Shown here piece by piece: positions 5,901-56,850 of a stretch of DNA of 64,000 nucleotides. Numbering within the stretch: the stretch's first letter is position 1; each line of letters starts with the position of its first letter. The stretch covers positions 16,035,355 through 16,099,354 of the forward strand of contig JABAKD010000010.1 in the NCBI GenBank assembly GCA_012845835.1, given 5' to 3'. The notes beneath the pieces are model-generated. The model made no database searches and was not told where the DNA came from. It saw only the letters and a list, made by a program, of their open reading frames with translations. Both the position numbers and the translations under genes were made by a program. The stretch is from Undaria pinnatifida (lineage: Eukaryota; Sar; Phaeophyceae; Laminariales; Alariaceae).

Positions 5901-6863
5901 GCACGCGCGCATTTGGACCAGGTTGCACCGAATTTCAGCTCAGATTTCGACCGCATTCATTTTTTGGGGAACATATGTACCAGGTACACACAGGTACCAT
6001 ACGGGTCCACATGATAAGGGTGGATGTCTTGTGTCGCTGAGTCATTCCACGGAAGGTGTGGCAGTTGTTGGGCAGCCAAACGTTTTTTTTTCTGACCGGT
6101 TGAGCTCCTCAAGTGCTGAACTAACGGTTAGCCTGATAGCGCTACGAGGATACTTGTTTTAGAACTAGCGCACAGATATGTTGGCCGTGCATCCGCACGA
6201 GATGATTTTGGAAGATCGCCCTCGGTTGCTTACAGCCATGCGTCATATGATGTATTAACACCGCCCCTCCGTTGCTTACGGTCATGCATGACATTACTTG
6301 GTTCCACCCCCCCCCTCACTGCTTCTGCCTCCGCTGTCCTTGCTGCTCCACCCTTGCTTGCAATATTGGATCGGAACAGGTGTACTCCTTCCGCTACGAC
6401 CACCATTACGAGTGCCAGGTGCCCGTTTTTTCACGTTGGAGTACGTACGCATTTCCAGTATTACCGTGCGTAGCCCTCTAGCTGCGAGGTTGTATCCCTT
6501 GCCATTCATGGGTCGGATAAGCCCGGCCTGAAAGGTACTGTTGAAGCTTATGGACGCAAAATCAACTGTCAGGCATGGCGGCAATCCACGCGCTAAAATT
6601 ACCTTAGCCTGTTGGTGTTTTCTTAGGGCCGCAAATAGTATATTTCGTTATTGGTGTACACCGTCGCTTCACCGCGCTCTCCAAACAAGCGCTGGTTCAA
6701 AAAAATATGCACATGTACCAGGTAGGCTGCTTTTTCCCTCGATTTACGCGGCACATGATACGTATTACGCAACAAAACTCAGAGTAGTGCGTAGGTCTGC
6801 CTGTTGCTCAGGTTTGTCCACGCGTTTTTTTCATTACACGTGGCTGAACTGTTGCTATGAAGT
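5901..6863. other. Intergenic, no gene seen
   Basis: It contains two TACCAGGTA motifs (5978-5986 and 6716-6724) and a short imperfect tandem pair with GTTGCTTAC and CATGC (6218-6292). Small open frames here lack any recognisable domain. The equivalent in the second block is about 35048-36010. Confidence 0.5.
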
Positions 6864-7530
6864 TGAGACGAAAAACGTTCCCGACTATTCGGTCAGTATT
6901 CATCGATGAAAACTCTCGACCGCAATCGATCAAATCTCCGTCGATAAGAATGCTCACGAAGAGTCGGTCGATTTCCACCAATCAGAGCGCCCACGAGTAC
7001 TCGGTCAATTATCATCTATAAGAACGAACCCGAATAGTTGGTCATTTTTCTATTGACAAGAACGTTCACCAATAGTGTGGGTCAATTTTCAATCGTTAAG
7101 AACATGCACGAATATGCGGTATTTTTTCCATCGACAAGAACGTTCACCGGTAGTCGGCGTATTCCCATTGTAATGATGAGATTAGCTCATGAATAACCCG
7201 TCGATTTTCCGTCGATACAAACGCTCGCGAATTGTTGGTCAAATTTGCGTCGATAAGACTGACGAATAGTTGGCCAATTACCGTCGATAGAAAAACGCCC
7301 ACGAAGAGTTATTCAACTCCAATTGATAAGAACGCTCACGAACAGTCGATCAAAGTTTCCACCCATAAGAACGCTCACGAAGGTCGGTCAATTCCATCGA
7401 TATCAGGGCTCACGAATAGTTCGTCACTTTCCGTCCTTTGGAACGCGCACGAGTGGCCGATCAATTTAAATCGACAAGCACGCGCATGGCCAATTCCCAT
7501 CGATCAGAAACCCTCACCAATGGTTGGTAA
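6864..7530 (+). repeat. Degenerate 38-bp tandem satellite, about 18 units (block 1)
   Basis: Units of about 34-43 bases follow the pattern GATAAGAACGCTCACGAAT then AGTCGGTCAATTTCCATC. Neighbouring units share perhaps 60-75% of bases, so the array is old. Some units contain TCGATCGA-like palindromic cores. An open frame across part of it is a by-product of the repeat. Confidence 0.85.
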
Positions 7531-7849
7531 CATGTACATCCGCAGGTTGTCGGGTACGACTCACGGCGACGAATGCACCGCTGCCTATATGACGCTACGG
7601 GCGAGAAACAGTGGCACGAGCTAGCTAACAAGCGCTTCGAGGTGGTCGGCCAGAACGGTGTGGTCAGTCGCGGCACTGAGAGCGCACCGCCGCCCTCCAC
7701 CGATACCCCGTTGCTGCTGCCGCCGCCCAGATCACCAAGCAAATAGTGACATTACCAGTATTTTTCGCTACCCTGTTGCTGTTGCTATCTCCCACGTCAT
7801 CGAGAAAATAGTGAAGTTACTGGTGTTCTTTGTGGTAGGGATATCGCTG

Positions 7850-8068
7850 AGGTGGTGGCGGTGGCGTTGGTGGTGGTGGCGGTGGCGGTGGTAGTGGTGG
7901 TGGCGGAGGTGGTGGTGGTGGTGGTGGTGGTGGTGGCGGTAGTGTTGGTGTTGGTGTTGGTGTTGGTGTTGGTGTTGTGTTGGTGTTGGTGTTGGTGTTG
8001 GTAGTGGTGGTGGTAGTGGTGGTGGTAGTGGTGGTGGCGGTGGTGGTGGTGGTGGTGGTGGTGGCTGT
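7850..8068 (+). repeat. GGT/GTT simple repeat tract (block 1)
   Basis: A G/T-rich tract of GGT, GGC and GTTGGT units. The middle (GTTGGT)n part is interrupted as GTTGTG compared with the other block. The block 1 tract is also about one unit different in length. Long open frames across it (poly-Val, poly-Thr, poly-Pro) are artefacts of the repeat. Confidence 0.9.
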
Positions 8069-8109
8069 ACTGGCGTGCTCGTATGTAGCGATCACGAAGC
8101 GAGTGTTGC

Positions 8110-8310
8110 AGTGTTGCTCTTGCTTTTGTCGAGTAAGCTCAGTGTTGTCAAGTTGGTGCAAGTAGCGTCGAGTGGAATGCTTCGTAGTGATGTCGAGTAG
8201 GAGGCTCAATATTGTCGAGTTGGTTGCTCGGTGTGGTCAGGATAGATGCTCAATGTTGTCGAATCGAATGCTCGGTGTTGTTAAATTAGGCGTACCGTAT
8301 TGTCAAGCCG
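8110..8310 (+). repeat. Degenerate tandem repeat, about 35-bp unit (block 1)
   Basis: Five or six imperfect units contain GTTGTCGAGT, TGGATGCTC or TTGCTCGGTGT and similar. It directly follows the GGT tract. The equivalent in block 2 is about 37259-37459. Confidence 0.55.
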
Positions 8311-8660
8311 TCTGCTTCTGCCGCCCCTTTCGCCTCCTCTCAGCCAAAGGGTTGTCCGTCGTGACTCTGTAAGAGGCCGCCGTGCAGCCGAACACAAACC
8401 AAGCACGGGCTATGGTGCGCGCAAAGAAGTTGTCGTTGGACTCATCTCGGTTGTGCCTCTTTGTGAGTCACCGCCGTATTATACTGTAGATACGCACAAC
8501 TTGTCCGACAATTGTCGTATGTATGATGTACCGGTGATTTTTTTTGTTCATCGCTTTGTTTCGTGTTATTTCCTGGCGGCGGGCCCTCTTTGTCTGTGTT
8601 TACCGGCGCAGTGTTGCCCACGTCTGGCGCAGGAGAACAAACGAACTGAAACCCGATAAC

Positions 8661-54597: not shown

Positions 54598-54599
54598 TA

Positions 54600-54952
54600 C
54601 TTCCGGCGGGGCTGTCCCTCTTTAGTCTAACCGGTCGCCCCGGTGGCGTATCAGGTTATCCTCGAGCCTGGTATAGGTCAGTTTCGTGAGTTCGAGCCCC
54701 ATCGAGTGCATACTACTCGTATAAATTCGTTGGGACTTTTTCTTTCGCACAAATTGACTTGCGGAAAGCGCGAGAGCGTGAGTCAGCAACATTCGATGAA
54801 CAATCGACGAGCAGTGGGATTGCTGAACCCTATGCGCGATAAAAATTGAAGGCAAGAACCGGGGAGGAGAAGGGATGACACCTGTGACCACGGCTTGTCC
54901 AGAAGCTGGAAAGTGAAAGTGTGCTAAAAAAAAAAAAAAAAAAAAAAAAAAA
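54600..54952 (+). mobile_element. tRNA-derived SINE, copy 2, with poly-A tail
   Basis: Box A TGGCGTATCAGG (54644-54655) and box B GAGTTCGAGCC (54688-54698) lie in a tRNA-like head starting near GGTCGCCCCGG. A body of about 220 bases is followed by a pure A run (about 54925-54952). It matches 50789-51130 on the other strand. The tail and internal promoter are the SINE hallmarks; mobilisation would need a partner LINE, which I do not see. Confidence 0.85.
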
Positions 54953-55199
54953 GTCTATATGTTGTATAGTATGCATTATGTGTTACGTGTTTGTCGTACC
55001 TGATGTGTACGAGGTATGTGCTACCCGTTTGAATATTATGTCCTTTCAGATGAGCTTCTGTTCATTGTTGCATCACATTAATGTTACTAGTATTAATTCA
55101 GATAGATAGATACTGTACTGTCGTCTAGCCCTTCCTTGTTGTGGAGTGAGGGCAGCGTCTTCTCGCGCTCTTGTTGTTACTGCCTCTCTCCTATAGAAC

Positions 55200-55265
55200 A
55201 TACACTACTACTACTACTACTACTACTACTACAACAACTACTACTACTACTACTACTACTACTAC
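55200..55265 (+). repeat. (CTA)n microsatellite
   Basis: About 20 CTA units, interrupted once by ACAACAACT. Confidence 0.9.
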
Positions 55266-55449
55266 TTATGCTGCTGTTACTACCATGTGCGTATAATACG
55301 AGTCTATAGCTCTGTGTACAGATATACTACCGGGAGAGGTAGATGCTGCTGATGATGATGATGATGTGTCTTTTCCAAGCCAAGTGTATCGAAGACACCG
55401 TCGTGGTGTGGTAGTGAATGCCTGGCACCAGATTCTCTGCTGCATAATA

Positions 55450-55925
55450 CCTCCCCCCCCCCCCCCGCCCCCAATAATATACTGGTGCCAAAACCGTCAG
55501 ATTTATCCCCTCGAAAGGATTTATAGCTTACATGCACAAATTGCCCCCTTTCCCCCCCCCGCCCCCCCTCCAAACCCGCTCGCTTTTGATCAAAACCAGG
55601 CCCCCACGTCCTTCAAAACTCCGCCCCACCCCCCTCACCGGTTATTCGACTTACAAGATTCACTTGATAAAAGGATACATTTCCCTTCACAGCTGTCAGA
55701 TTTTGTCCCCCTCAGAAACGGGTTTTATAGTTTCCGCGCACAGACTGACTAAAATCATCCTGTTGACCCTGATAGCTACACTGTAGTTGTAAGGGGAGTC
55801 GCCGACCTATATCGAGGGCACACAACTCGTACTGCGCGCGATCGGAGTATCACACACAGCTTGCAAAGATGAGTTTCGACGAAATCTTCGATCTCACAGC
55901 TGAAGTGTATTTTCATTTTTTATAA
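55450..55925 (+). repeat. Family C repeat, long copy
   Basis: It contains C-rich tracts, CACCGGTTATTCGACTTACA, CAGCTGTCAGATTTTGTCCC, GGGGAGTCGCCGACCTATAT, CTTGCAAAGATGAGTTTCGA and the GTGTATTTTCATTTTTTATA end. Confidence 0.8.
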
Positions 55926-56850
55926 TAATACTATGATGCTGCGAAGTGCGTGCGTTTGATGTTTTAACCGAAGAGTTGCAGTGTACCGTATCTACCCACA
56001 TCGGTAGAAAAACTACTGCTGTCGCGTGACAACTAGTCGGAATAACGTGACCACTATGATTTTACACCAGGTACCGTATATACCAGGTATACGAAGGACC
56101 CGTGAAGAGTATACCTGGTGCCAGGTGTTTGTTAACGATGGGAGGACTCCGTGTGTGGTTTCTGCATACCAGGTATATATATATATGCACCACCGCTTTG
56201 AATTGGCGCCTCTCGATTTGTTGCGCGCGTCCACCCGCGATTGCGGTGGCTGCAGGTTCCGACATTTAAGTGATAGCCCCGAGTAGAATGTATCTATTAA
56301 TGCATTGCACTTGTCCCTCCACTTCCTGGCGGCGGAGAATTATTCTGTCTTTCCCTTGGCTACCCTCCTTGCCTTGTCGGTTAACTCTCCGATGACCCCC
56401 GACCCTCTCTGCCGGTCTGTCCGACTGGGTGGAGTCGTTTTGCAGCTCGAGTGCGAGACCACCTACTAGTTACTGTTAACAGTTGTTGTAGGAAACGGAG
56501 AATCGTTACCTTCCAACGGGTTAACCGAGGACTCGTACATCGTGCTAAATATACATGAACTTACTAACTAACAAGCAATGATGTGGCCATATTTAGTTAG
56601 GCTAATGGGTAGCGTAGTACGAGTGCTGTGCCAGGTATACAATACATACATCCGGCGGGGTACTCTAGTTCCTGCTCAGGCCTCCGCTCGTCATGAGCTA
56701 CTACCGTGTGTGTTATGTGCGTTCGCGATCGCAAGGGTCGAAGATCACCACAACAATATTGGCATACCCTCGTCCGAATTACTGATTTTTGCTGCACATA
56801 AACACAATATTACCAACCTCAAACGAGGGTGGATGCAGTCTTGAAGGGGT
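55926..56850. other. Intergenic, motif-dense
   Basis: Two complete TACCAGGTA motifs (56081-56089 and 56167-56175) and several near matches (CACCAGGTACC, TACCTGGTGCCAGGTG, GCCAGGTATAC) lie within 600 bases. No gene seen. Confidence 0.45.

Follow-up and report, generated by a model that had tools for sequence, protein, structure and literature searches.

The palindromic nonamer TACCWGGTA (W denoting A or T) occurs throughout the genome of Undaria pinnatifida, and we consider it probable (roughly 0.68) that its copies are the excision scars of a TA-inserting, cut-and-paste DNA transposon, in which five nucleotides of the element's end are kept. The motif was studied in a stretch of 64,000 nt (G000:C2:16035355-16099354; hereafter the window) and across the assembly to which it belongs, which comprises 511,146,479 bases in 68 contigs. 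The observation itself is solid and its scale is extraordinary. A first-pass annotation of the window had read the motif as a transposon footprint, and this reading is borne out in part: the excess, the 7-bp gains, a target preference centred on TA and a neutral-looking decay support it, whilst the CC-ended element that it called for and its argument from the central W do not.

Either TACCAGGTA or TACCTGGTA was present at all 15 of the coordinates previously named, and another five copies lie in the second copy of a duplication of approximately 16 kb (Table 1). Local counts were restricted to the unique part of the window (47,555 nt), where Markov models of orders 1 to 4 gave expectations of 0.32-0.69 against the 15 copies observed (Poisson p = 1.6e-15 at an expectation of 0.69). 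Orders 5 and 6 gave higher expectations, of 2.6 and 9.4, because such models learn the motif itself. TACCWGGTA was the top class among W-centred 9-mer palindromes in the window; among the S-centred classes TGTAS ties at 15, a count that looks to be derived from a tandem repeat near 12 kb.

The genome-wide excess that the first-pass annotation had proposed to look for was found, and the effect is far larger than that seen in the window. With the pattern read backwards and the same-composition, TA-flanked palindrome TAGGWCCTA as controls, a total of 85,263 copies of TACCWGGTA were counted, compared with 3,475 of the reversed pattern and 1,928 of TAGGWCCTA (its own reversed control: 2,102). The S-centred form TACCSGGTA was found 9,212 times (control: 2,599). 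Beyond the window counts, a non-redundant sample of 166,747 nt that includes the window (approximately 167 kb) held 38 copies with 38 different flanks, and the excess survived the masking of short tandem repeats (38 observed versus 1.1). TACCAGGTA and TACCTGGTA are reverse complements. They represent a single sequence read from either strand, and the central W is therefore uninformative on its own and no sign of mismatch repair; the earlier suggestion that it marks mismatch-resolved ends is void.

Repeat alignments were used to compare occupied and empty sites, as had also been suggested. Forty-nine scars with 70-nt flanks, the flanks being joined at one TA, were searched against 248,093 nt, redundancy included. 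The bulk of the spanning matches represented the same locus in overlapping stretches, or the duplicated block of the window, in which the scar is common to both copies. For four scars a spanning repeat copy was found elsewhere, and three of these displayed a 7-bp gain (TA plus CCWGG) at a single TA, that is, insertion at TA with duplication of the TA, a trait of Tc1/mariner elements; the alignment of the fourth (C1:1,033,941) was gapped at the site and gave no clear gain. The insertion claimed at 14548 (counted once with its duplicate at 43678) was confirmed, with a single TA in two repeat copies that are 83.8 and 82.7% identical, in alignments that carry other small gaps nearby. At C1:1,002,715 a single TA is present in two neighbouring tandem copies, with no other gap over the aligned 142 and 120 nt. 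The scarred copy and the two empty ones are identical over approximately 100 nt around the site, bar the scar, which makes this scar appear recent unless the copies were homogenised by gene conversion. At C1:1,056,604 a single TA was found in one copy, 82% identical, with a 2-nt gap close by. The second insertion claimed for the window, at 52780, is plausible in that its empty form is read in relatives, though it is weaker, as no alignment spans the site. One further scar, at the locus designated L039, is common to two adjacent copies, which fits a scar older than the duplication.

The flanks of the scars followed the pattern R-TA-Y in 27 of the 38 cases in the 166,747-nt sample, relative to 33% of all TA sites (p = 2.4e-6). 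Genome-wide, the same flanks were found at 52,710 of the 85,263 scars (61.8%), relative to 599 of the 3,475 control-pattern sites. A weak palindromic preference around TA, another trait of Tc1/mariner elements, is therefore present. Variants one transition away from the motif numbered 47, compared with 10.2 expected, and 28 of these had R..Y flanks; transversion variants were in mild excess (33 observed versus 20.2 expected), with R..Y flanks in 10 of the 33, and part of them are copies within one tandem array. This is the appearance to be expected of neutral relics that differ in age. At the central position of the motif the W-to-S fraction was 7.5%, from which a rough figure of 165,000-184,000 founding events is obtained, if all nine positions decay alike.

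The proposed element would insert at TA, duplicate this dinucleotide and, on leaving, keep CCAGG or CCTGG between the two TAs. Its ends would read TA-CCWGG...CCWGG-TA, with a transposase cutting the non-transferred strand five nucleotides inside and thereby generating 3' overhangs of CCWGG, and pairing between the CC and GG of these overhangs would make repair uniform. Such an element would belong to, or work like, the Tc1/mariner/pogo group. Approximately 80,000 still-intact scars would be left of its activity, and copies of the element would now be rare, lost, or devoid of recognisable long inverted repeats. A more tentative extension, which we hold to be plausible though somewhat less likely than not, is that of a ghost element dominated by excision, whose self-pairing five-nucleotide overhangs wrote a uniform scar some 10^5 times in one genome whilst the resident almost vanished.

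The scar model also draws support from other TA-bounded strings in the same genome, namely a second W-specific class, TAGWCTA, and TACGAGTA, for which there is a candidate parent. After masking of short tandem repeats, TAGWCTA was observed 45 times versus 7.2 expected, and its S form 10 times versus 8.9; genome-wide the class numbered 107,556 (control: 41,033). Its flanks are not R-TA-Y (8 of 45). TACGAGTA was observed 22 times versus 4.4 expected. TACWGTA was not W-specific (34 versus 16.9 expected; S form 33 versus 16.5), and several further TA-bounded strings were in excess, some of them from repeat families. At G000:C1:1053232-1054280 (L014) a TA-flanked stretch of 1,049 nt begins with TACGAGCTGGGCCGGC and ends with the same sequence inverted, between unrelated outer flanks. 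No second copy of it was identified in the sampled sequence, and it holds open frames of up to 166 codons, as listed by a search for open frames only. Judged by its ends, this stretch is a candidate parent of the TACGAGTA scars, and as such the TACGAG-ended stretch favours the scar model. All classes would be explained by a number of element families that target TA, each with its own scar.

Several results weigh against the transposon reading, chief amongst them the outcome of the search for the element itself. In the 166,747 nt, with ends up to 7 kb apart, no convincing TA-flanked, CCWGG-ended element with longer inverted repeats was identified, and none was found when 21 more loci were added and ends up to 8 kb apart were allowed; elements that have only five matching end bases or are longer than 7-8 kb would be missed by such searches. 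A crude 95% upper limit (3 per 166,747 nt) is approximately 9,000 CCWGG-ended elements genome-wide, against 85,263 scars. Pairs of the form TACCWGGV...BCCWGGTA were found genome-wide 447 times at 56-116 nt (control: 86) and 385 times at 191-251 nt (control: 90). Inward TACCWGG ends not followed by T occur 30 and 23 times in the 166,747 nt, and since these densities alone predict approximately 774 pairs per length range, no element is needed to account for the pairs; no abundant short CCWGG-ended element was found genome-wide in these two length ranges. A length peak at 216 nt (5 of the 50 pairs listed, p = 0.08) was dropped, the exact count being 12, with 6 in the control and approximately 6 expected. 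The CC-ended element of the first-pass annotation accordingly appears neither in the approximately 167 kb nor, as an abundant one, in the two length ranges.

Other points count against the same reading. The five retained nucleotides exceed the 1-4 given for Tc1/mariner scars in those parts of the literature consulted, a range that is typical and not strictly defining. Scar doublets, TACCWGGTACCWGGTA, were found 3,654 times genome-wide (for instance at G000:C1:379286; control: 2), and whilst doublets are to be expected if a scar's own TA serves as a target, this is approximately six times the ~590 predicted for random insertion at R-TA-Y sites. Repeat copies may account for some of this surplus at most (four of the doublets listed fall within 26 kb of one another); re-insertion nearby, or a bias towards particular R-TA-Y sites, may account for more of it. 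Gene conversion among the tandem copies could make the scar at C1:1,002,715 look too young. The evidence for clean gains in the other TA-bounded classes is also softer: TAGWCTA displayed one clear clean 5-bp gain at TA, at C1:1,068,718 with two partners, the partners of the remaining TAGACTA events listed read TG, and that of a TACGAG gain at 46540 reads CA.

Two transposase-bearing families were likewise dropped as sources, their ends not being CCWGG. The one is a Tc1-like element of approximately 1.75 kb with a DDE_3 match and repeats TGGTCCGTGCACAAC (L019-L022), and the other a pogo/jerky-like DDE_1 element of approximately 3.6 kb (L037/L038), the ends of which were judged from where its two copies stop matching. 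Profile searches of the genome returned eight weak DDE_3 matches (best approximately 30 bits) and 82 DDE_1 matches, such that Tc1-like and pogo-like transposase matches are present; the mariner profile Transposase_1 had no matches, in a search that matched nothing in control genomes either. Neither the DDE_3 nor the DDE_1 matches could be linked to termini of the CCWGG type. For the DDE_1 families behind L027-L036, the loci did not reveal where the elements end, and these families are the first candidates for the source. Copies of the TGGTCCGTGCACAAC element are approximately 99% identical with TA on both sides, and by this identity the element looks recently active; the copy in L019 interrupts a repeat that is also present at 168-749 of the window. 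The L037/L038 element is 98.6% identical across two contigs, and its shared stretch is not bounded by long inverted repeats.

Individual candidates for a CCWGG-ended element were rejected on inspection. The sole exact-end pair with longer inverted repeats, 51060..54673, consists of two opposite tRNA-like short interspersed nuclear elements (SINEs), with homology continuing past TACCAGG. These SINE copies (50773-51102 and 54631-54952, in opposite orientation) are 89% identical; the published Undaria annotation gives only 326 SINEs (PMC7058681). Six pairs with one end mismatch were also dropped, five because they resemble copies of other interspersed repeats in inverted orientation, and one as a join artefact. 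The repeat at 168-749, which has one-sided TACCTGG and CCTGGTA sites, extends in homology outside the supposed left end, and a 250-bp family at 8661, 12981 and 14108 begins with GAGTCGTTC or a close variant, not with CCWGG. Amongst the 12 matches listed at 56-116 nt, four contain this SINE, and one was a 68-nt stretch (C1:9747353-9747420) with inverted ends alike over 14 nt (TACCTGGGTATACC). It stands alone and unproven as a possible element of very short length with CCWGG ends, and may derive from a repeat; it was not counted because repeat copies in the window also contain the word CCTGGGTATACC (62826; inverted near 49936).

The main rival is the direct insertion of 7 bp without any transposon, for instance by a TA-specific nuclease whose cuts are repaired to a fixed product, or because the 7 bp form a minimal unit that spreads itself. 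It would account for a highly uniform product, for the doublets in excess of random insertion and for searched sequence in which no CCWGG element was found. We nevertheless judge it unlikely: the target preference and the TA duplication look like the work of a transposase, further classes of TA-bounded strings are present, including one with a possible parent element, and we are aware of no process by which a fixed 7-mer is written at TA sites 10^5 times. A functional binding site (regulatory, replicative or chromatin-related) kept by selection would be palindromic, very frequent and uniform, as the motif is. This is improbable, however, given that the surplus transition variants keep R..Y flanks in the manner of neutral relics, that, of three near-identical tandem copies, only one carries the motif, as a 7-bp gain, and that the 38 sampled sites stand in otherwise unrelated sequence. 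Lower divergence inside the motif, a binding-site trait, was not found, judging indirectly from the transition variants with R..Y flanks.

More improbable still is that the motif was ancestral in the repeat families, the single TA having arisen by deletion between two TA direct repeats. Such a deletion would yield exactly the empty form, but empty copies outnumber filled ones 2 to 1 both in the tandem array and in the 14548 family (the duplicated block counted once), the ratio at C1:1,056,604 being only 1 to 1, and deletion is unable to produce 85,263 copies in unrelated sequence. We attach next to no credence to a counting artefact in which the motif belongs to a high-copy or tandem repeat. 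Five sites do lie in the duplication of the window, two in the adjacent copies of L039, and four listed doublets in the 26 kb already mentioned; yet the differing flanks of the 38 non-redundant sites refute the artefact for that sample, and the excess outlasted masking.

Excision scars are usually rare beside the elements that make them, and variable in sequence. With some 85,000 copies of a single scar, of which one or more appear young, this genome would offer a natural archive of how excision proceeds, how it is repaired and which targets are chosen. Should the excision-dominated ghost element be real, its history would survive only as footprints, from which insertion dynamics could be followed at single-base resolution with no need of the element. 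If the element survives, it may be useful as a vector with a predictable scar; if it is gone, the case would show that extensive marking of a genome by a cut-and-paste element can be followed by its disappearance. A 9-mer this common could also be mistaken for a regulatory motif.

Table 1. TACCWGGTA scars in the 64,000-nt window.
Feature	Position	Strand	Remarks
TACCAGGTA scar	5978..5986	.	Duplicate at 35127
TACCAGGTA scar	6716..6724	.	Duplicate at 35864
TACCAGGTA scar	10176..10184	.	Duplicate at 39325
TACCTGGTA scar	14209..14217	.	Duplicate at 43338
TACCTGGTA scar	14548..14556	.	7-bp gain relative to repeat copies 62146-61917 and 61438-61211; duplicate at 43678
TACCAGGTA scar	18676..18684	.	
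TACCTGGTA scar	22965..22973	.	
TACCAGGTA scar	35127..35135	.	Second copy of duplication
TACCAGGTA scar	35864..35872	.	Second copy of duplication
TACCAGGTA scar	39325..39333	.	Second copy of duplication
TACCTGGTA scar	43338..43346	.	Second copy of duplication
TACCTGGTA scar	43678..43686	.	Second copy of duplication; also aligned against both empty repeat copies
TACCTGGTA scar	46720..46728	.	Edge of GCCTTATAACA repeat family
TACCAGGTA scar	50268..50276	.	
TACCAGGTA scar	52276..52284	.	Adjoins one-sided TACCAGG at 52286
TACCTGGTA scar	52780..52788	.	Within GCCT-TA-TAACA of a repeat family; no spanning alignment
TACCAGGTA scar	53332..53340	.	
TACCTGGTA scar	54036..54044	.	
TACCAGGTA scar	56081..56089	.	
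TACCAGGTA scar	56167..56175	.	

The direct duplication in the window spans 1 to ~15935 and 29148 to ~45075 (a shift of approximately 29.15 kb), is more than 99% identical around the five shared scars, and represents either a true segmental duplication or the tandem assembly of two haplotypes. A gap of 500 N is located at 15958-16457. An open reading frame with a kinesin motor domain (Pfam, 3.6e-70) lies at 1216-2307, and the second duplicate copy holds one of equal length (30363-31454). The window also contains a (TCA)n run of 120 units at 99% (54236-54597), a long C-rich tract (47733-48189) and a satellite of ~10-bp units (TACTACAGTR; 12037-12694 and 41186-41838), which is rich in TACWGTA and therefore inflates simple counts of that string. 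No RNA gene was detected in the window by Rfam, at gathering cut-offs, or by ARAGORN.

The Minos footprint consists of four nucleotides of the element end plus TA. The scar described here resembles it in having a core longer than that of mariner, and the TACGAGTA excess resembles the Minos scar form; TACCWGGTA is one nucleotide longer, however, and commoner in our sample than TACGAGTA (38 versus 22). No report of a TACCWGGTA scar was returned by literature searches on the motif or on footprints of this kind, which is not proof of absence. In a related host lineage, Ectocarpus, the portion of the report consulted describes 17 Mariner-Tc1 families with approximately 12,000 copies, including TcMar-1/2 and the 217-bp TcMar-N1, and abundant short non-autonomous copies (PMC12477816); the likeness lies in the host lineage and the TA-type superfamily, and the words 'footprint' and 'excision' are absent from the main text of that report. 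From the parts of the respective sources available, the footprints of grass Stowaway and rice Osmar5 elements comprise TA plus 1-4 bp of the inverted-repeat end (PMC1925063), those of Tc1 in worms are highly variable (PMC4490562) and those of Hsmar2 are non-canonical (PMC3770610). Stowaway and Osmar5 likewise leave TA and end bases, their scars being variable, whereas one five-nucleotide scar is dominant here.

Insertion at TA and short scars derived from the element ends are described for Tc1/mariner elements (PMC3878927, PMC2874221), with 3' overhangs of 2 or 3 bp and, for Sleeping Beauty, a scar given as C(A/T)GTA (PMC3878927). The same scar is printed as TAG(T/A)CTA in the sections seen of PMC2874221, which is the form of the TAGWCTA class. 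We have not filed the present scar as the product of a Tc1/mariner member, because its length is outside the described range and no transposase match could be tied to it. It differs from that of Sleeping Beauty in a core of five rather than three nucleotides, in its uniformity, in its approximately 10^5 copies and in having no resident element identified, and it shares with Tc1/mariner footprints, such as those of Sleeping Beauty, the TA target, a TA on both sides, a palindromic core and the gain at a single TA.

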